IMG/VR virus record: IMGVR_UViG_3300037427_000053
Span: 1-29,424 of that record
Origin: a virus
Direction: 5' to 3' (one strand)
Length of the DNA: 29,424 bases
Part shown: piece by piece, positions 4,534 to 29,424 of the stretch
How positions within the stretch are numbered: position 1 is the stretch's first letter
Layout: each line of letters opens with the position of its first letter
Program-made: the position numbers and the translations under genes
Notes under the pieces: model-generated
The model's input: only the letters and a program-made list of their open reading frames with translations
Databases searched by the model: none
What the model was told of the DNA's origin: nothing

Positions 4534-4981
4534 CTTTGTTCAGCCCGTGGGTGTACCCGTCTTGCTTGTTATATGTAAGCGACTCACCTCGACCGCCTTC
4601 AACGTAGCTACAATGTATCCAGCCAGAGTTGCCGCCAGTATAACACTCAAGAATAAGCTGGTCATAATCTAGGTTGTCCTCAATCCATTTTGCCAGGTCA
4701 TAGTTATCTACGCCTGCTACCTCAAAGTCTGCTGCCTCACCCTTGGCATGTTGACTGTCCAAGCTACTGCCGATTGCAACGCATAACTCTGGGCTGCGAT
4801 ACCCTGATGAAACCACGAACGAACCAAACTCATCTCGGATAGGCTGCAATATCTTTTCACACAACAGTTCCATAGCCTCAATGTGATGCAGTTCTGGGGC
4901 GTTGGGAATACCCTTGCGTTCAGCAACCTGAGACTTCACCATTTCTTCTAAGGTAAAGTTTGGCGACAGAGGGTAGGTCAT
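4526..4981 (-). CDS. M15-family peptidase, probable endolysin
   Basis: 151 residues, the usual size of stand-alone Peptidase_M15_3 domains. Expected zinc ligands are visible: H78 and D85 in SQHAKGEAADF and H123 in GWIHCSY, with E112 (LILE) as likely general base and the SSGYRSPE segment at 58-65. The family cleaves D-Ala or L-Ala-D-Glu bonds of peptidoglycan peptides. No signal peptide is seen, so it would need a holin. It sits among membrane-protein genes and overlaps the upstream small gene by 4 nt (ATGA), consistent with the lysis cassette. Confidence 0.85.
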   Translation of the reverse strand: MTYPLSPNFTLEEMVKSQVAERKGIPNAPELHHIEAMELLCEKILQPIRDEFGSFVVSSGYRSPELCVAIGSSLDSQHAKGEAADFEVAGVDNYDLAKWIEDNLDYDQLILECYTGGNSGWIHCSYVEGGRGESLTYNKQDGYTHGLNKDG

Positions 4982-5130
4982 TTCTTTTTCTTCTTTGCTG
5001 TCTTTGCTGACTGCTTAAAAGCCTTGGCTGTCGGCGCACCCTTGCTTCCAGGCTTGCGCATCTTCTCACCAGACCCAGCAGCAATACGTTTCTTTTTTGC
5101 ATGAATGTTTGAATATAATCCGCGTTTCAT
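4978..5130 (-). CDS. Small Lys-rich phage protein (MKRGLY family, 50 aa)
   Basis: Starts MKRGLYSNIHAKKKRIAAGS and continues with EKMRKPGSKGAPTAKAFKQ, ending in five lysines. This tiny protein recurs beside endolysin genes in marine phages, in my recollection; role unknown. It is bounded by 4-nt overlaps on both sides: its ATG overlaps the holin-like stop and its TGA overlaps the peptidase start. A longer frame in another register over the same bases is rejected as a shadow of this gene. Confidence 0.75.
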   Translation of the reverse strand: MKRGLYSNIHAKKKRIAAGSGEKMRKPGSKGAPTAKAFKQSAKTAKKKKK

Positions 5131-13272: not shown

Positions 13273-15892
13273 GCGCATATTGGCTAGGTTCAAAGAAAAA
13301 GTCCTGTTTCATGTCTTGTTCCATACGCCGTTCCATTCTACGCAAATAACCTGGATTTGTTTTTTCCATTAGTCCATAAATAAACATGTAATCTAAAGCT
13401 GTCTTTGTGTAGAAAAGATTAAGTCCTGGTGTGTTGCTTACTGCGAACCTAGTAGCGTTTTTAACAAGCGGGTCTGTGTCGCCTGTTTGCACTGCTTCTA
13501 ACGTGTTGCTGTATATTCTAGCTATGTCATCAATGCTGCCGAATGTGGGGCCAAGTAAATTTTGTGTAAGTGTTTGCCCATATTTGTTGTATTCGCCAAA
13601 CAAGAAGTCGCCGTATATACCAGCACCACCACCTTGCACAAAGGCTTTAGTTAATACCTCTACATTCAAACCATTCTCTACACTAAATGCTTCTGATGGC
13701 TCCTTGCCTTTTAATATGTCTTTCAATGTCAGCGATAGGTATCCCATCATAGTTGTGCCTACCATCATCTGTGCTAGGCCATAAATGCCGCTTCTAGTGT
13801 TGCCGCCAAGTTGTTTAGAAACTTGATACTGACCAGACATCCCTTTCATAACCATTGTAATTGGAAAGCCTTTTAACTGCCCTATGGCTCTCAAGGCCTC
13901 ACCAGCAACTGTGCCACGCGCAGTGCCTTGGTTCATAAAAGCACGTTCTTTTGCGCCAGGAGTAGGTATAGCAGTGTCCGCCGAGTCTGTTAGGTATGTA
14001 GATATTTTTGTAGATAAATCATCACGATACTTCTGTATCATTGTTGCCGTTGCTTTTTTTAACGGTCTTTTGCGGGTTGCGTTTACCTTTGCCAAAGCAG
14101 CCGCTTCAACAACAGAATCCGCTACTGTCTCTACAGCAGATGGTGTCATATAGTCACGCCCATCTACAGCTTTCATGTCCATGCTACGCATGACTTCCCA
14201 CTCAGTATCGCTAATTCCGTAACGCTCAAGGTTTAACCTAGTTCTAGTGTCTATATCGCTAAAGGCTTTGCCACGGTATCTTGCCAGGTCGGCAGACATC
14301 ATCCTGGCAAGTCCAACTTTTTGAGAATTGTTCCACCAATTCATACCGTTTATTCTAAAGTAGTGTTGATGTGCTTTTGCCATCAAACCAGGGCCGCTGT
14401 CGTTTGCGCCAAACCTAGCGTGTACATCACCAAGAAAACTCTCAACACCTACGTTTAGTAAGTAAGCTAGTTCTTTTTGTTCATCGCTGTTGAATCCTCT
14501 AAATATGTCACTAAACGCTTCCGCATAAGAACCAAAGATACCTCTGTCAGTCCTAGTGTTGATGAAATGCGCTTTTGTTGATATATCTGAAAACGAGGAT
14601 ATGGTAGCCATACCAAGTTTTGCCATGTTCTGTAGCATGCGCCAGCCAGCGGCAATCCCAGCAAAGTCTGCACCAAATGCTATAGGCAATCCCGCCCCAC
14701 GCGCACGGGTCGAACCGTCAATCTCTCTGAACTGGTTGTTTAGTCTGCCAGCCCTTCTTCTAATTTTATCAACACCAGTCATGTTTGGGTCGTTTTGCAA
14801 ATCATTAAGGATGCGGCTAAACATAGCTTCTGGGTTTGTACCAAACACCTCCATCAGACCTATAGACTGCGCATCGTGCGTAATACCATTCACAACGGAT
14901 TCTGCTAGGCTTTGACGACTGTAAGTTTTTGAGTAGTCGTATGCGGCCTTGCCTGTCTTGAAATGGATAACCCTGCTTTGGCTAAGTTTTTTTGCAAGGT
15001 TGGCGGGGCCAGTGAATGACTCAAGGCTATCAATTTTACCGTCATCCCCGCGTAATGCGCCAACCTTTTGGTGATTGCCGCTAACCAAGTTACTCCAAAT
15101 ATCTCCTAAAAATTCTTCTGCTGTATAAGGTTTACCATCTTTTGTCGGAGGTTTGTTTTCAAATGTCCTTGCGTCAAGTACACCGTCCTTCATCATGTAG
15201 GCAACCCACTTAGTTTTTGCTTGCTGAAACTCAGCATCAGTTCTTGCCCCATCTCTAAGCAAAATAGGGTCGTGTGACTGGCGGACAACATAGTTCTTTA
15301 AATCGCCAATCATCGCTCCTAACCCGTTTTTGCGTTTCAACAGCCGTTTCTGCGTCACCTGTATAATCTTTGCTATCTTCACAGCGTCCGCGTCAGCAGT
15401 GCTTTTAACTTCAAAGCTGTCTGGGTCAAACATAGCTGCGTAAATTTTTTCGTCTAACTCGCCGCTTTTGAATAGAGTGTCCAGTTTTTCTCGTTTTAAC
15501 GCCGCTACAAGTTGACCAGCATACTGTGTCATAATTGCTTGTTGACGGGCATCAACACTGTTCTGACCGTTCTTCATAAACTTATAACTACCGACCATGA
15601 CTGCCGACAAAGCATCTGCTGGGTCGCCGCCTGACTTAACAAATCTCATTGTCTCTGCGTATGCTTTAGCATTTAACAGTCGGTTACGTTTTTGCATAAC
15701 TGCATTAATTCTAGCTTGCTTTGCTATCTCACGGGCTAACCCGAATAACTCAAGTTCTTGCCCCTCACCCGCATTTTCTACGCGCTTGGAAAGGCGTTCG
15801 GTAAGAACTTCGATAATTTCGTCAGCTTCTTCCTTTAGCAAATTTATACCCGCTTCACGGGCAGCAGCCATTACTGTATCTACACAACTCAT
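13262..15892 (-). CDS. Internal virion / DNA ejection protein, gp16-like C-terminal part
   Basis: 876 residues, mostly helical, with an amphipathic hydrophobic stretch near residues 400-430 (GLPIAFGADFAGIAAGWRML) and a segment of small residues near 700-730 (LAQMMVGTTMMGYLSLTL). The composition and place between the gp15-like genes and the fibre correspond to the membrane-spanning C-terminal part of T7 gp16-type ejection proteins. Together with the upstream 571-residue gene the length is 1,447, near T7 gp16 (1,318). Stop-start overlap with that gene is ATGA, next to an A6 run. Confidence 0.72.
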   Translation of the reverse strand: MSCVDTVMAAAREAGINLLKEEADEIIEVLTERLSKRVENAGEGQELELFGLAREIAKQARINAVMQKRNRLLNAKAYAETMRFVKSGGDPADALSAVMVGSYKFMKNGQNSVDARQQAIMTQYAGQLVAALKREKLDTLFKSGELDEKIYAAMFDPDSFEVKSTADADAVKIAKIIQVTQKRLLKRKNGLGAMIGDLKNYVVRQSHDPILLRDGARTDAEFQQAKTKWVAYMMKDGVLDARTFENKPPTKDGKPYTAEEFLGDIWSNLVSGNHQKVGALRGDDGKIDSLESFTGPANLAKKLSQSRVIHFKTGKAAYDYSKTYSRQSLAESVVNGITHDAQSIGLMEVFGTNPEAMFSRILNDLQNDPNMTGVDKIRRRAGRLNNQFREIDGSTRARGAGLPIAFGADFAGIAAGWRMLQNMAKLGMATISSFSDISTKAHFINTRTDRGIFGSYAEAFSDIFRGFNSDEQKELAYLLNVGVESFLGDVHARFGANDSGPGLMAKAHQHYFRINGMNWWNNSQKVGLARMMSADLARYRGKAFSDIDTRTRLNLERYGISDTEWEVMRSMDMKAVDGRDYMTPSAVETVADSVVEAAALAKVNATRKRPLKKATATMIQKYRDDLSTKISTYLTDSADTAIPTPGAKERAFMNQGTARGTVAGEALRAIGQLKGFPITMVMKGMSGQYQVSKQLGGNTRSGIYGLAQMMVGTTMMGYLSLTLKDILKGKEPSEAFSVENGLNVEVLTKAFVQGGGAGIYGDFLFGEYNKYGQTLTQNLLGPTFGSIDDIARIYSNTLEAVQTGDTDPLVKNATRFAVSNTPGLNLFYTKTALDYMFIYGLMEKTNPGYLRRMERRMEQDMKQDFFFEPSQYAQRF

Positions 15893-17604
15893 GCTTTTTT
15901 CGTTCCTATCAAACAGTTTGCGCCAGCGCGACTCAACCCTTCGTATGCGTCAGCCTTTGCGTCTAGTTCTTCTGTCGCTGCGATAGATTGCTTTATGTCG
16001 CTTGGCAGTATTGCTTGGTTCTCAGCAGTGTTTAAATCTTCTTCAAGCAAGTCGTTCTCTGCTTGTATTTCCGCTGGGTCAATCTCATCTATTTCGGGTC
16101 TGTCTGCTTCTATCTCTTGCACGGCTTCTTTGTATTCACCCAATCTTCCCAAACCATCGCCTTCTATAGATGCACTGTTAGCCGCGTTCTCTTTCTGCTG
16201 TGGGGTCAAAACACCTTGTTCAGTTTGCACTAGACCAGCGGCTTCGCGCTGTTGCGACTCAAGCGTAGCTATCTTTTCTTGCTTAGACTGTATTTGAGAT
16301 ATCTGTTTGGCAGTGTACTTGGGTTTCTCTAACCCCTCTTTCTTTTGCCTTGCTGCAACATTGCTTTGTATCTTTTCAATATCTGCTTTTAATTTAGCAA
16401 TCTGCGCCTCAGCAGCTTGTCCTATGTCTGGGTCTGCGGGGCGTATCACTACTTCTCCACCCCTGCGCCTCCTTTCTATTTCTATAGCTTTTTTATCTTT
16501 TTTAATTTTAGCAACTAAGGTTGCATCCCCAGCTTCTTCTGCTGCTTTTATTGAGTTCTCCAAAATGTTAGCAATATCGTCTAGGCTCTCAGTCGGCAAA
16601 TTAGAAACGGCATCCTCTCCATCAAGCATAGTAATTTCGTAATCTTCATCATACGGAGACTTTGAAAATGTATCACTTGTGTCCAGCACCTTTTCTGTGC
16701 CATCCGCATCGCGTATTGTTATTGTGCCATCCTTGTCAATGTCGATAACGTCTACAGCCCTTGGGATGCCTTCTGAATCATAAACAATCTTTTTCCCAGC
16801 CTGGTCTTCCATTTTTGCAATATTTGTTTTTTCTACATTGTCAGTTATAGATGTCACATCTATATCTTCGTCAGCGGCGGCTTGTTTTAAAGATATTTTT
16901 TGTGCCTCGTCTCTAGTTGAGGACGGTAACTTGTTAATCCTGTCAGATATTTTGCCAGCACCCCAATGCAGTCCACCACCAAGCGCAGACCCCACTGCCA
17001 CGTTTAGGAAGCTATCCATTAGGCCGTAGTCTCTATCCTGTTCTGCGACTGCTGCACCGATAACAACGGGTTCTATAACTGCCGCGCCGATTGCACCGTC
17101 CATCATACCAGTCGTAAATCTGTTGCCACGTTTGCCTATCCTAGAAGCAGCAGTTGCCATTCTAGCTGTGGCGATGGAAGGTATAAAGGCAGAGCCTACG
17201 TTTAGCGGGTCAAGAAAACTGCCAGCAATAGCAACGCCAAACTGTGCTGCGCCTAGACCTAGACCTCCACGGGAACGGCTAAGTGTAGTCTTAAAATCAG
17301 CGCGTTCGTCATATCTGTCTGCAAGTAATGTAGCCAAACCTTCTTTAATACCCTCGTCTCCGACCTCAATGCCCTCGCGGAAGTAGTCACTCTCTGCCCA
17401 CTCGTCCTTAGTAAGCATGCGGCCTTCACGCCCAGACCCCAGCTTTTGTTCAGCTAGGCGACCTAGTGCATTAGCAGGGTTGTAGTACAAAGTCTCATCA
17501 AGGGTTGAACCCAGAACGTCTAGCGTTCCAGTTTTTGCATAGTCAAAATACTGGTTGCGTAGGTTCTCGTCTTCTTTCTGTTCTGGGATGTATACATCAA
17601 CCAT
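15889..17604 (-). CDS. Internal virion protein, gp16-like N-terminal part
   Basis: 571 residues. A hydrophobic Gly/Ala-rich region lies at about 110-215 (GLGLGAAQFGVAIAGSFLDP, GMMDGAIGAAVIEPVVIGAA, FLNVAVGSALGGGLHWGAG), likely to insert into or cross the host envelope. Residues about 330-530 are charged coiled coil (for example AQIAKLKADIEKIQSNVAAR). No lytic transglycosylase motif is visible, unlike T7 gp16, which suggests peptidoglycan passage depends on another protein. It ends with ANCLIGTKKA at an ATGA overlap with the 876-residue gene. Confidence 0.68.
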   Translation of the reverse strand: MVDVYIPEQKEDENLRNQYFDYAKTGTLDVLGSTLDETLYYNPANALGRLAEQKLGSGREGRMLTKDEWAESDYFREGIEVGDEGIKEGLATLLADRYDERADFKTTLSRSRGGLGLGAAQFGVAIAGSFLDPLNVGSAFIPSIATARMATAASRIGKRGNRFTTGMMDGAIGAAVIEPVVIGAAVAEQDRDYGLMDSFLNVAVGSALGGGLHWGAGKISDRINKLPSSTRDEAQKISLKQAAADEDIDVTSITDNVEKTNIAKMEDQAGKKIVYDSEGIPRAVDVIDIDKDGTITIRDADGTEKVLDTSDTFSKSPYDEDYEITMLDGEDAVSNLPTESLDDIANILENSIKAAEEAGDATLVAKIKKDKKAIEIERRRRGGEVVIRPADPDIGQAAEAQIAKLKADIEKIQSNVAARQKKEGLEKPKYTAKQISQIQSKQEKIATLESQQREAAGLVQTEQGVLTPQQKENAANSASIEGDGLGRLGEYKEAVQEIEADRPEIDEIDPAEIQAENDLLEEDLNTAENQAILPSDIKQSIAATEELDAKADAYEGLSRAGANCLIGTKKA

Positions 17605-20226: not shown

Positions 20227-20682
20227 TCACGCGCCTATGGTTGCTGCTTGCGTACCGCCAGCTAACAAAGATTGATATGATGCCAGTTTGTAGGCAGATG
20301 CTTTAGCGCGGCCTGTGGCGCGAGTTAATGCAGCTTCAGATGCCTTGGCTGCTTGCTCTATATCTGAGGCATATTGAATATTTAAGGCATCCATTTCAGT
20401 GTTAAAGTATGAGTCAGCTAAGGCTTCTAAAGGGCTTCCAGACATTTCCACCCCTGCGGCGGCAGTAGCAACGCGTTGCGTGGCTACTTGCCGTTCAGAA
20501 GCCTTGCGCATATTAGATTCTTCGGAAACCTTACGCCTGGAAAGCAGTATAGCTTCGTTCTCTGCAACCCGCGCATTAAACTCGGCTGTAGCTTTAGCCT
20601 GTTTAGCTGCGGCCTGGTTGCCCTTGTAGCCCAGAATACCACCAAGAACTGAACCGCCTTGTGCCATTGTTGATGCTTCCAT
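20227..20682 (-). CDS. Internal virion protein, gp14-like
   Basis: 151 residues. MEASTMAQGGSVLGGILGYK gives a glycine-rich hydrophobic start, followed by a long helix rich in Ala/Arg/Glu (AAKQAKATAEFNARVAENEA) and GVEMSGSPLEALADSYFNTE, the pattern seen in short internal core proteins of podoviruses. T7 gp14 (196 residues) makes the outer-membrane part of the ejection tunnel. The position between Gp13-like and the 871-residue protein fits. TAATG overlap with the gene upstream. Confidence 0.72.
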   Translation of the reverse strand: MEASTMAQGGSVLGGILGYKGNQAAAKQAKATAEFNARVAENEAILLSRRKVSEESNMRKASERQVATQRVATAAAGVEMSGSPLEALADSYFNTEMDALNIQYASDIEQAAKASEAALTRATGRAKASAYKLASYQSLLAGGTQAATIGA

Positions 20683-21104
20683 TACATCACCCTTGCCATG
20701 CGGTAATAGTCACTACCGTCTGGCCCAAACTTGTACATAATACCTTCATCTTCAAATCCCATCCATCTAGCAAACCTAATCGCCTCTGGGTCGCCCATGT
20801 GAATACTAGCTTGCACACGATGTAAACTCGTTGTTGCCAGTATACTACTAAACAGTGTCTTAGCATACCTAGCTAGTGACAGCTTCCATTTCGGGGCATG
20901 CCTGGACAAAACAACCCAACCTTCGCCGACACCAGCCCACATCTCATGTATGCCACCAACAGCAACAACATCCTTGTCGCCCATGATTGCATAGCCAATT
21001 ACTTGCTGCCCGTTGTCAAACGCAGCCCTCATGCTTTCTGGGAAGTCAAAGTCAGTCTCAATGCTGTTAATAAGACTAGAGTTAAATGGCACAATCCTAA
21101 GCAT
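20682..21104 (-). CDS. Gp13-like protein with GNAT-type fold
   Basis: 140 residues. MLRIVPFN..., then GYAIMGDKDVVAVGGIHEMW, GEGWVVLSRHAPKWK and DPEAIRFARWMGFEDEGIMYKFG follow the acetyltransferase layout seen in the T7 Gp13 family (DUF2833), which has 138 residues in T7. The acetyl-CoA loop (Q/RxxGxG/A) is not clear, so enzyme activity is doubtful; in T7 the protein is needed for assembly of the internal proteins. Order 12-13-14 matches T7. Confidence 0.78.
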   Translation of the reverse strand: MLRIVPFNSSLINSIETDFDFPESMRAAFDNGQQVIGYAIMGDKDVVAVGGIHEMWAGVGEGWVVLSRHAPKWKLSLARYAKTLFSSILATTSLHRVQASIHMGDPEAIRFARWMGFEDEGIMYKFGPDGSDYYRMARVM

Positions 21105-23508
21105 CGAAAGTATTTGACCTCCGCATGATTGCCAGCAATGTCATAGGTAAGGGCTGTGATTGCCTTACTACAACCCTTGCATCAGTCTCGTATCCAGATG
21201 GAAAATATATTTCTTTATCGCCCGTGAACAACGGCACAGCTTTATCCATAGCCATGCTACTGTCGCGGAACGGCAGTCTGTCTAAGTTGCTTGTGTCTGG
21301 CCCTAGTTCCGCACCGACTGTGTTAAAGAACCGTGCTGTCACGCCATGAATACGCTTTAGTTTGCCTTGCGCAATGCCATCATCAGCGCCAGCCTCTAGC
21401 CTTAGTGTCTCTACTGTTGAGGAGTATGAATAACCTACATGCACTTTTGATGCTGTGCGGTCTAAAGTAATTGCGCCACCAGACACTGTTCTGTCTGGGT
21501 GGGTTGCACCATCAGCAAGAATAGACACAACTTCACCCTCTAAGTGGTTTAGCCCTGTAATGGTGCTGGTAGCTGTGCTGTCGTAGGTAAGACCGCTGTC
21601 TACAAAAAACGCATCAGCTACATTATCGCCAAACTCAATAGTCTTAATAAACTCAATATGGCGCACTGTGCTACCATCAATGGTACGTTTGACAGATATA
21701 TAAACCTGGTCTTCTGCACCTGATGGAATAGCGGTAATACTCTCAACAATCCCGCTACCGCCAATGGCGTGGTCATGCCAGCCTACAGCAGCATTTGCGC
21801 GGTCATAGGTAAGACCAACTAAACGCCCGTCACTATGCACAAACCATAAGATTAACTCTGGTTCCTGTTGCCATACCATATCAGTAAGACCGCCGCGTGG
21901 TATGTGGTCTGCTAGGATTGTCAAATCTATTCCTAACAATCCATCAGTGTCCAAGTTAAATGTAATCTCTTTAACTTTCTCTTGGCCCTTCTGGATAAGA
22001 ATAGTGCTGTTACCAGCGCGAACTGGTCTAATGTCTGATGTTCCAAATGTTGTTTCACGCAGCACGTTTACGTTTGTAGGTGTAACTGGCTGGGAACCTG
22101 TGCCACCAGATAAAGTAAACTCTGAACTTGTGGTTAAGATTTGCAAAAATCTGGCTGGTAGTAAATGTCTAATAACATTAACGCTATCAGATGCAATCGT
22201 TAGGTTTACTGCGTCATCATCTAGTATGCCTGGTGTGTGGTTTTCAAAGTCTGCCGACACACTGCCAAATATCGTCTGTGGCTGGCCTGTAGTGCCAGCA
22301 AAGTATAATCGTTGCTCATAGAAGCCAACAGCCCGTGGGAAGCCCTGGTCGCCGTTAAACGCACCCAATGACCACAGTTTAGTCGCGTTACTAGAACCAA
22401 CCGTATGCTCTGGCAAAGTTGAAATGCCAATGGCGTTAGTCTTTACTGTAGCTGTGACTACTGTTGCGCTTGTAAATCCTGTAATTACAACGTAGCCATT
22501 AGCGTCATGCTGATATGTCCACGTTAAAGCGCCGTACACCTCACTGCCTTCAAGGTGAACTGGCGGCGTATTTCCAGAGGTTTGGGTGCTGCCAGTAGTG
22601 TGTTTGTAAACATGCCCGTTGAAACGAACTTTTACATTGTTAGCGTAGCTTTTTGACGCTTCCCATTCATCATAATGGACTTCTAACACTTCTCTAAAAC
22701 GTATATACCTACCCACATCCGCGCTAGTAAACAAATCCGCAGACGCTGTAATTGTTATTCCAGAGCCTGTTTGTGCTGAAGCATACAAAGTTGTAGTGGT
22801 GTCATTCTCATCGAGATAAGGCCCATCAACAAAGTCAATGTCGCCTATTGTAAAGCTGGTTGCTGTCGTTCTTGTCAGCTTTGCTGGCTCATGGCTTTTG
22901 TGTGCCAGGTAAACAACATCAGCAGATTGCGTATGATTTAATTCAAATACCTCTGTGGCGCTGTAAGTCGTAGTAACCTCTACAATCTTACCAGCAGTGC
23001 CGCCACTACTGTAAGTAGTAAAGCCAGTGCTATTTACACCCGATAGTTCAAATGTATTCGTAGCGGTGTTGGCTACAGTAAACTCCTGGTTGTTTAGTTC
23101 AGTCATACCAGCAACTGACTTAATAAACACCCTGTCTCCATTAGAAAAGCCATGACCGTTAGATGTTACAACTGCTGGGTTGGCTTTGGTAATTGCGGTA
23201 ATTGTTTTTGTGGCCTCAGTAAGTAAGCCGCCATCTTTGTAGAAGCGAATATAGTTTGCACCCATTTCCAAGACATACGCTTGCTCATCACTGAACTCAA
23301 AGTTCATCAGGCGAACCTTGCCACCGTCCTTAGAACGCCCAGCAAAGAATGTGCCTGGCCTGCGCGTCACGCCGCCAGACGGATACACCAACATATTGTT
23401 TAGCGTTTGCGCAGCCTCGTTGTATTTCTGTAAATCAATACGACCTTCTAGCTTTGGCGATATTTCACCAGCGCGGAAGTTTGTAATAATGCTGGATACA
23501 CGGGCCAT
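21097..23508 (-). CDS. Tail tubular protein B (gp12-like, tail nozzle)
   Basis: 803 residues, near T7 gp12 (794). MARVSSIITNFRAGEISPKL and YNEAAQTLNNMLVYPSGGVTRRPGT at residues about 29-53 are signature starts of the podovirus nozzle protein. Further beta-rich repeats follow (ETTFGTSDIRPVRAG, GLTYDRANAAVGWHDHAI). It forms the distal tail tube to which fibres dock. Ends 8 nt inside the Gp13-like gene; starts one base after tube A stops. Confidence 0.87.
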   Translation of the reverse strand: MARVSSIITNFRAGEISPKLEGRIDLQKYNEAAQTLNNMLVYPSGGVTRRPGTFFAGRSKDGGKVRLMNFEFSDEQAYVLEMGANYIRFYKDGGLLTEATKTITAITKANPAVVTSNGHGFSNGDRVFIKSVAGMTELNNQEFTVANTATNTFELSGVNSTGFTTYSSGGTAGKIVEVTTTYSATEVFELNHTQSADVVYLAHKSHEPAKLTRTTATSFTIGDIDFVDGPYLDENDTTTTLYASAQTGSGITITASADLFTSADVGRYIRFREVLEVHYDEWEASKSYANNVKVRFNGHVYKHTTGSTQTSGNTPPVHLEGSEVYGALTWTYQHDANGYVVITGFTSATVVTATVKTNAIGISTLPEHTVGSSNATKLWSLGAFNGDQGFPRAVGFYEQRLYFAGTTGQPQTIFGSVSADFENHTPGILDDDAVNLTIASDSVNVIRHLLPARFLQILTTSSEFTLSGGTGSQPVTPTNVNVLRETTFGTSDIRPVRAGNSTILIQKGQEKVKEITFNLDTDGLLGIDLTILADHIPRGGLTDMVWQQEPELILWFVHSDGRLVGLTYDRANAAVGWHDHAIGGSGIVESITAIPSGAEDQVYISVKRTIDGSTVRHIEFIKTIEFGDNVADAFFVDSGLTYDSTATSTITGLNHLEGEVVSILADGATHPDRTVSGGAITLDRTASKVHVGYSYSSTVETLRLEAGADDGIAQGKLKRIHGVTARFFNTVGAELGPDTSNLDRLPFRDSSMAMDKAVPLFTGDKEIYFPSGYETDARVVVRQSQPLPMTLLAIMRRSNTFDA

Positions 23509-23509
23509 G

Positions 23510-24106
23510 TTACAACCTAAAGTTAGTAAAGGTGTCTGCGATTGGCTGTTCTGGGTATCCTTCCATAGCGTCTATTGATTTGGCTTCTCGTAATCTTTGC
23601 TCGTACAATCCCTGCATCCCCTGCGCCAAAGTAGAACTGCCTGTAACTCCGTAAGCAATTTCAGAGGCCAGCCTGTGCGCTATGGTAGATGTTAATAAAG
23701 AATCATACTGTTCTGTGTCAGTCTCACGACCTATGTATATAATTTTACAAACAGTTTCATTAGACAAAATCTTACGGCCCTCAATCTTGTACATGACATT
23801 GCTGTCATAAGCCGCAATCTCGTTGTCTACACTGGTATCCCAGAATGACAAAAGCCGTAAGCAATACGGGTCTGTCGGCAGTGTGTACTGGAAGTTAAAA
23901 CCAAATGCCGGAGTGTCAGTGTCTTGAGGTAATGACTTTCTAGTGACAGCTACGTTCCAAGGGTGTGCGCGTAAAACTGAGTCACGGATTAACTCAAAGT
24001 TTCTGTTACAAAGCCTAGCTTCTTTAGAGTTTTCTGTTAGGGCTGTAATAGTAGCAGCGCCTAGCAAGTCTAGTGATTGGTTACATATGTCAACAACTGA
24101 TGGCAT
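23510..24106 (-). CDS. Tail tubular protein A (gp11-like adaptor)
   Basis: 198 residues (T7 gp11: 196). SVVDICNQSLDLLGAATITALTE, ARLCNRNFELIRDSVLRAHPW and ASEIAYGVTGSSTLAQGMQ are classic features of the podovirus gatekeeper/adaptor that joins portal and nozzle. The start overlaps the end of the nuclease-like gene by 17 nt. It lies directly upstream of the nozzle gene, as in T7. Confidence 0.88.
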   Translation of the reverse strand: MPSVVDICNQSLDLLGAATITALTENSKEARLCNRNFELIRDSVLRAHPWNVAVTRKSLPQDTDTPAFGFNFQYTLPTDPYCLRLLSFWDTSVDNEIAAYDSNVMYKIEGRKILSNETVCKIIYIGRETDTEQYDSLLTSTIAHRLASEIAYGVTGSSTLAQGMQGLYEQRLREAKSIDAMEGYPEQPIADTFTNFRL

Positions 24107-28772: not shown

Positions 28773-29003
28773 TTACCCCAATAATGTAGGTGTGCCGCCA
28801 GTAGATGTGGAAGTTGTACCACCGCCAGCCATACCAGAACCAGCAACTATAGTAGACCCAGCACCTTTTCTTTTACGGGCTTTCTTAACCGCTTCTTCAG
28901 ACAATGCTGCTGCGCGTTGTGTATCTTCTTCACCCGCTTGGGCTGGTGGGGGAGGTGGTGGCGGCGCGGGTGGCATATAAACTTTTGGTTTAAGGAATGA
29001 CAT
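28773..29003 (-). CDS. Proline-rich small protein with basic-Gly-TI(V) motif (76 aa)
   Basis: MSFLKPKVYMPPAPPPPPPP gives a polyproline stretch at about 11-20, then a helix (AALSEEAVKKARKRKGAGST) leading to GAGSTIVAG and a Gly/Thr/Ser-rich tail. The basic-Gly-TI(M/V) segment recurs in the two proteins upstream. Small genes of this kind lie between terminase and portal in many marine podoviruses; role unknown. It starts on the stop of the upstream gene (TAATG). Confidence 0.65.
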   Translation of the reverse strand: MSFLKPKVYMPPAPPPPPPPAQAGEEDTQRAAALSEEAVKKARKRKGAGSTIVAGSGMAGGGTTSTSTGGTPTLLG

Positions 29004-29341
29004 TATGCAGAACCTCCTGTTGGAGATTTAGAACTAGGCTTTGCATAAGCTACGCCATATCCTTCCATGATTGTACCAGCACCGCCAAGTTTTTTTCCAG
29101 ACCTTCTCCGAGTTTTAGATGCCATTAATGTATCATCAGGCACAACTTCTGGCGTTACCTCTGGCGTTACTTCTGGTTCTAAGGTAGGCGGTTTTTCGCC
29201 GTACAACATAGCGCGGCGTTCTTCTTTGTTAGTACCCATCGCAACGTCAAAAGTTTCAGTCGCTACTTTTTTAAATGGTTTTTCAATAGTTTCTTCAAAA
29301 AGTTCGTTTAACGGTTTAAAAGGATTAAAACCACCACCCAT
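29003..29341 (-). CDS. Small protein with PEVTPEV repeats and GGAGTIM motif (112 aa)
   Basis: MGGGFNPFKPLNELFEETIE starts an amphipathic helical N-terminus; residues about 54-70 contain short Pro-Glu-Val-Thr repeats (PEVTPEVTPEV); KTRRRSGKKLGGAGTIMEGY follows at about 76-95. AGGAG six nt before ATG 29341 sets the start. No catalytic motif. The shared C-terminal motif with both neighbours indicates duplication or a common binding partner. Confidence 0.65.
   Translation of the reverse strand: MGGGFNPFKPLNELFEETIEKPFKKVATETFDVAMGTNKEERRAMLYGEKPPTLEPEVTPEVTPEVVPDDTLMASKTRRRSGKKLGGAGTIMEGYGVAYAKPSSKSPTGGSA
29139..29170. repeat. Short tandem repeat in the PEVTPEV coding stretch
   Basis: Repeats of the 12-mer CTTCTGGCGTTA occur about 2.5 times with single changes (CTTCTGGCGTTAC, CTCTGGCGTTAC, TTCTGG), encoding Pro-Glu-Val-Thr units on the minus strand. 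Such repeats can change length by slippage. Confidence 0.45.
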
Positions 29342-29350
29342 AATAATCTC

Positions 29351-29424
29351 CTACTTTCCTGACAATAAACCTGTTGTTTCCATAATTGTGCCGCCGCCGC
29401 CGCCTCTGTTTCTGCTGCGAGACT
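29351..29424 (-). CDS. C-terminal end of small protein (5' part off window)
   Basis: Only the last 23 codons are present. They read SRSRNRGGGGGTIMETTGLL followed by SGK and a TAG stop at 29353-29351. The Arg-rich, Gly5 and TIM features match the motif of the two following genes, which decides the frame over two other open frames. The frame continues off the right edge. The GGCGGCGGCGGC stretch encodes the glycine run. Confidence 0.6.
   Translation of the reverse strand, partial: SRSRNRGGGGGTIMETTGLLSGK

Follow-up and report, generated by a model that had tools for sequence, protein, structure and literature searches.

Small proteins encoded before a phage portal gene share a conserved C-terminal motif and are candidate minor proteins of the portal-tail channel

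Directly upstream of the portal gene in a 29,424-base viral contig (IMG/VR record IMGVR_UViG_3300037427_000053; "the window" below means this whole stretch) lie three consecutive genes for small proteins, here called A, B and C, which share a C-terminal motif made up of a basic cluster, glycine and T-I/L-x. Our analysis confirms that this motif is real and not due to chance. We propose that A, B and C are probably minor virion proteins of the portal and tail channel, with B and perhaps C as counterparts of bacteriophage T7 gp7.3 and A perhaps as a counterpart of T7 gp6.7. The observations behind this proposal are a fixed tandem position before the portal gene, apparent coupling of the genes, predicted disorder, the conserved C-terminal motif and the similarity of B to gp7.3. 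The genes are:

28773..29003, minus strand: A, 76 residues; MSFLKPKVYMPP N terminus and polyproline, predicted helix, basic cluster, STIVAG motif, TPTLLG end
29003..29341, minus strand: B, 112 residues; helical N-terminal region, acidic PEVTPEVTPEVVPDD linker, RRRSGKK basic cluster, GGAGTIMEGYG motif; T7 gp7.3-like
29351..29424, minus strand: C, the 23 C-terminal residues (SRSRNRGGGGGTIMETTGLLSGK) of a third protein, truncated at the contig end
27180..28769, minus strand: portal (head-tail connector), 529 residues, directly downstream of A; PF12236, E 6.5e-151; phrog_332 head-tail adaptor, E 9.3e-160

The initial annotation had described three consecutive genes that each contain an Arg/Lys cluster, Gly and TI(M/V). 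We located all three strings on the minus strand, ahead of the portal gene: RKRKGAGSTIVAG in A (28773-29003), RRRSGKKLGGAGTIMEG in B (29003-29341) and RSRNRGGGGGTIMETTG in C (29351-29424). Intact C is a 101-residue protein in a related locus (L005, 3114-3419), in which A and B are identical to those of the window and C is preceded by a 135-residue gene and the terminase large subunit. In the window, the end of C is separated from B by 9 nucleotides, B and A overlap in TAATG and A ends 3 nucleotides before the portal gene. Because of this overlap and the 3-nucleotide gap, the block looks translationally coupled. Structure prediction placed one helix in A (residues 25-45; mean predicted local distance difference test score (pLDDT) 63) and gave B a mean pLDDT of 58; both models are of low confidence and mostly unstructured, and both proteins are predicted to be largely disordered.

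The proposal that otherwise unlike and largely disordered proteins carry a common short linear motif was borne out, since homologues of each of the three conserve it at the C terminus; it occurs in 48/48 distinct A C termini and in the upstream C-type genes found. At the 76 loci that include A, its C terminus consists of a basic cluster, G, [STE]TIVAG (TIAAG once) and a terminal PTLLG or PTILG. This is the fullest form of the motif, longer than had been stated, with a terminus of ...[KTR][PTS]LLG. In B orthologues the terminus is a basic cluster followed by G-x-G-T-[IL]-[MIL]-E-[GE]-[YF]-G, with some looser forms; the core varies (TIME, TLME, TLEE, TMEE, GLVEE), while the surrounding G-x-G...E-x-[YF]-G is almost invariant. 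Those of C mostly end in TI[MI][EQ][ST][ST]G. Profile comparison related B to C at 89%, A to C weakly (27%) and A to B very weakly (7%), all exceeding 60 column shuffles. When local blocks were shuffled, the A-B match was not distinct, while those of A-C and B-C were equalled by at most 1/40.

To gauge specificity, we scanned public viral contigs with DNA patterns for the commonest form of the motif (STILTG..G..LLG) and for the B form (GT[ILM]MEGYG). Both scans are samples, not censuses, with at least 120 matches each, and the counts that follow are among the matches listed. All 120 STILTG..G..LLG stretches lay at the C terminus of short open reading frames (ORFs). The portal gene came next on the same strand in 110 of them and the other ten were within about 1.1 kilobases of a contig end, so that portal was next at 110/110 evaluable loci; these matches, divergent forms included, are mostly HTVC010P-like and thus do not represent 120 independent cases. 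For GT[ILM]MEGYG, 119 of the 120 in-frame matches listed fell within 70 residues of the C terminus. Portal was next in 103, fifteen were cut at contig ends and one had no portal (103/104 evaluable loci), and an A-type gene directly followed the match in 110. One stray match was inside a long protein, and there were two stray cases in all. Neither of the two outcomes that the initial annotation had named as refuting was therefore observed: the motif is conserved in the homologues and, rather than being equally frequent in unrelated disordered phage proteins, is almost absent elsewhere among the viral-contig matches listed. As both scans tie it to the C termini of short ORFs beside the portal gene, we rejected chance or low-complexity resemblance as an explanation.

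The tandem arrangement is also not peculiar to this contig. Two motif proteins each are found in HTVC010P, HTVC028P, Baldr and a Manatee Spring phage, and one each in epsilon15, UFJF_PfDIW6, MZH0603 and BPP-1; a second motif protein occurs at 30 or more of 104 loci among the STILTG-scan matches listed. Thus, a tandem family with a common C terminus is a recurrent property of this podovirus clade, whose short-tailed marine members encode between one and three such small proteins immediately ahead of portal. In distant relatives (loci L057, L061, L063, L075, L076, L079 and L084), the B gene grows from approximately 110 to more than 400 residues through Gly/Pro/Lys-rich N-terminal extensions, with a constant C terminus.

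A belongs with an existing family. It matched PHROG 831 (positions 5-69 of the 70-position profile; E 7.5e-5) and was the sole PHROG 831 place when the whole window record was searched (E 1.3e-6), while neither B nor C matched the family in protein or whole-record profile searches. In the whole-record search, ten named phages contributed 14 places and the window one, for a total of 15 in 11 records. Each of these places, as one or two genes, is directly upstream of portal, although the place in Yersinia phage YeP4 is weak (E 0.015). The family precedes portal in 10/10 examined phages with PF12236-type portals, including epsilon15 and BPP-1, and was absent from T7, SP6, phiKMV, P-SSP7 and HTVC019P (0/5 Autographiviridae; whole-record search). 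PHROG 831, which is listed as of unknown function and includes epsilon15 gp3 and two HTVC010P proteins, resembles A over its full length, in its pre-portal place and in its TI..G...LLG end. A differs in having TIVAG rather than TILTG and in lacking one further C-terminal residue that most members have; B and C carry only the first half of the motif.

In Pseudomonas phage UFJF_PfDIW6 (OM418631, 2026-2379; locus L085), a 117-residue PHROG 831 member is mislabelled "portal protein", while the real portal is the next gene. In Salmonella phage VB_ST_SPNIS2 (locus L089, before 3308), the gene is intact (STLLTGAQGDTSTANTSGKTLLGQ) yet unannotated, unlike epsilon15 gp3.

By profile comparison, B appears to resemble T7 gp7.3 (PF11653, PHROG 1320) beyond local composition; C seems to do so weakly and A does not. 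PHROG 1320 was the sole PHROG match of B in a protein-level search (E 0.097), and B was the only PHROG 1320 place in the six frames of the window (E 0.0018). It was also the commonest family among B orthologues (9/16 at E up to 1, best E 0.0021). The B-gp7.3 profile match (45-58%) exceeded the reversed profile, 60/60 column shuffles and all block shuffles save one of 40, at the finest shuffle. When 22 B orthologues were scored against the gp7.3 model, the mean was 11.2, while the best of 200 composition-preserving shuffle sets reached at most 6.8. B did not match PF11653 up to E 1, and tblastn with B alone against phages gave no match. Both SP6 gp29 and phiKMV ORF29, each the gene before portal, match PHROG 1320, and HTVC028P gp50, a PHROG 831 member, is the sole PHROG 1320 match of its genome (E 0.0016).

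Like B, gp7.3 is small and starts with MG, has an N-terminal helical/basic stretch, an acidic Pro-rich linker (-3 to -8) in the middle and a basic C-terminal cluster, and is encoded before portal, although in T7 an HNH gene intervenes. It differs in that the final TIMEGYG of B is not confidently alignable with SLSVARSSGGGINI and B of the window lacks a net basic N terminus, and in that two or three paralogues have a common tail here.

What is known of T7 suggests how such proteins might work. Its gene table places gp6.7 and gp7.3 in the slot before portal. Cryo-electron microscopy (cryo-EM) of T7 revealed that gp6.7 residues 2-15 wrap the portal barrel, that two nozzle subunits, at their junction with the adaptor, anchor the C-terminal loop of gp7.3 (84-98) and that gp7.3 K84/K85 contact the DNA end; both proteins exit the particle at infection, the small gp7.3 sitting in the tail channel and being released first (PMC11784390). 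In a T7-like Pseudomonas syringae phage, the counterparts of gp6.7 and gp7.3 are both in the virion proteome (PMC4517105). Such counterparts were hard to identify even in some T7-like phages in the Peru-2 study (PMC13320782).

The window encodes candidate partners for a comparable arrangement. Library scans identified virion genes on the minus strand, including portal (PF12236), a Bbp19-like protein, capsid (PF19821) and tail and internal virion proteins; one protein of this block gave a weak protease-family match. The window portal shares 57-59% identity with the portals of HTVC010P-type pelagiphages. The remaining features of interest are:

23510..24106, minus strand: adaptor, tail tubular protein A-like, candidate partner; phrog_394, E 1.1e-51; phrog_9239 tail tubular protein
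21097..23508, minus strand: nozzle gene resembling tail tubular protein B, a candidate for docking the motif; phrog_376 tail protein, E 6.6e-211
20227..20682, minus strand: possible counterpart of T7 gp14; phrog_418 internal virion protein, E 2.3e-9
15889..17604, minus strand: internal virion protein candidate; phrog_342 internal virion protein with endolysin domain, E 1.9e-7

An acetyltransferase-like protein that matches PHROG 308 "internal virion protein" (E 1.8e-10) is encoded at 20682-21104 (minus strand), with the nozzle gene on one side and the internal core genes on the other.

Because A, B and C are encoded before portal and are predicted to be disordered, B resembles gp7.3, the T7 structure is known and the window contains tail-tube and internal virion genes, we favor a role as minor portal-tail virion proteins. 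By analogy with T7, we infer that they would dock in the channel. The C-terminal motif would anchor each protein to the channel wall at the adaptor-nozzle boundary, or else to the portal; the basic cluster preceding it would face the packaged DNA end and the flexible N-terminal part would run along the DNA. The start of A (SFLKPKVYMPP; compare CFSPKIKTPK of T7 gp6.7) could grip the portal barrel. The proteins would assist nozzle seating and retain the DNA end, and would be first out when the tail opens. Two or three paralogues would have a common anchor and different reach.

Several results weigh against this assignment. The E-values linking B to gp7.3 are individually marginal, and the similarity of B to gp7.3 spans residues 18-84, giving out at the basic cluster, immediately short of the TIM motif. 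Since the matched stretch stops there, the terminal motif would correspond to the gp7.3 anchor by position rather than by demonstrable homology. A gained no support as a gp7.3 relative, since its signal did not exceed composition in the shuffle test, nor as a gp6.7 (PF17570, PHROG 1391) relative by profile, since the comparison was at chance level and neither PHROG 1391 nor PF17570 was matched. The gene neighborhood of gp6.7 is the same as that of A and their first dozen residues look alike, but by inspection only, with no backing from profile comparison. A search for solved-structure relatives of the A profile gave chance matches only, and we found neither virion proteomics for the A/B/C family nor direct reports of the motif in the literature.

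A less probable explanation is that the proteins are accessories of portal assembly or packaging, whose common C terminus binds the portal (or terminase) while procapsids assemble or DNA is packaged, making retention in the virion unnecessary. In this clade the genes do have the terminase large subunit on one side and portal on the other, and the small genes are tightly coupled to the portal gene. However, gp7.3-type genes of Autographiviridae stay beside portal and not beside terminase, which makes terminase an unlikely partner, and gp7.3, the relative of B, is a virion tail-channel protein reported to be required for infective particles (PMC11784390). Of the common docking site suggested in the initial annotation, the portal or connector is plausible, whereas nothing beyond gene order points to terminase or to a packaging system. 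Its description as undescribed holds insofar as PHROG 831 has no function label, but A is a member of that existing family and B resembles a protein whose position in the T7 tail channel has been solved (PMC11784390).

It is more doubtful still that A, B and C are internal core proteins only, which, like gp6.7, link the core with the portal barrel and, once ejected, line the channel, with the motif binding core or envelope proteins instead of the tail. The A-family N termini MSFLKPKVYMPP, MCVFSTPKPPAP and MCGSRPKMPPAP (HTVC019P gp27) resemble gp6.7 residues 1-11, MCFSPKIKTPK. In addition, one member of PHROG 831 has a second match, to PHROG 13568 (E 4.9e-4), a family represented in the same slot of cyanophage P-SSP7 by gp23, a small polyproline protein directly before portal that has weak links to PHROG 831 members and lacks the TI..G...LLG end. 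Against this stand the chance-level A-gp6.7 comparison and the match of B to gp7.3, not gp6.7. Finally, basic clusters and predicted disorder would suit non-structural proteins, early-ejected or intracellular, whose basic-Gly tail merely binds nucleic acid, but this is very improbable, as a merely basic tail would not hold TI[LMV]xG and [TS]LLG so strictly and the motif is confined to the portal slot.

Some neighboring genes also recur. In most relatives, a gene for a 135-141-residue acyltransferase-like protein lies between terminase and the small genes (L005, 2697-3104, upstream of C and outside the window); a homologue (L082, 3020-3433) scores above the curated cut-off of PF02794 HlyC acyltransferase (E 8.9e-7), and phiKMV and SP6 have acetyltransferase genes in the corresponding slot. 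A tiny basic protein (MKRGLYSNIHAKKKRIAAGSGEKMRKPGSKGAPTAKAFKQSAK; window 4978-5130, minus strand) is of a type that recurs near virion genes, for example in HTVC019P, HTVC028P, Baldr and Limnohabitans DC33.

HTVC010P-like phages are abundant in the ocean, and our assignment of A, B and C to the portal-tail channel offers a candidate role for PHROG 831, a very common family listed without function. The conserved anchor motif may also serve as a sequence handle for finding counterparts of gp6.7 and gp7.3. The assignment predicts a ring of TI[LMV]xG peptides in the channel wall in cryo-EM maps of epsilon15, BPP-1 or pelagiphage tails. More speculatively, and we regard this as rather unlikely, the whole podovirus clade of epsilon15-, BPP-1- and HTVC010P-like phages might fill the same ring of portal-tail channel sites with paralogous disordered proteins that have one common anchor and exchangeable N termini, in mixed or alternative occupancy. 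If so, this would be a modular anchor-and-payload scheme, to hold the DNA end or deliver different peptides first into the host.
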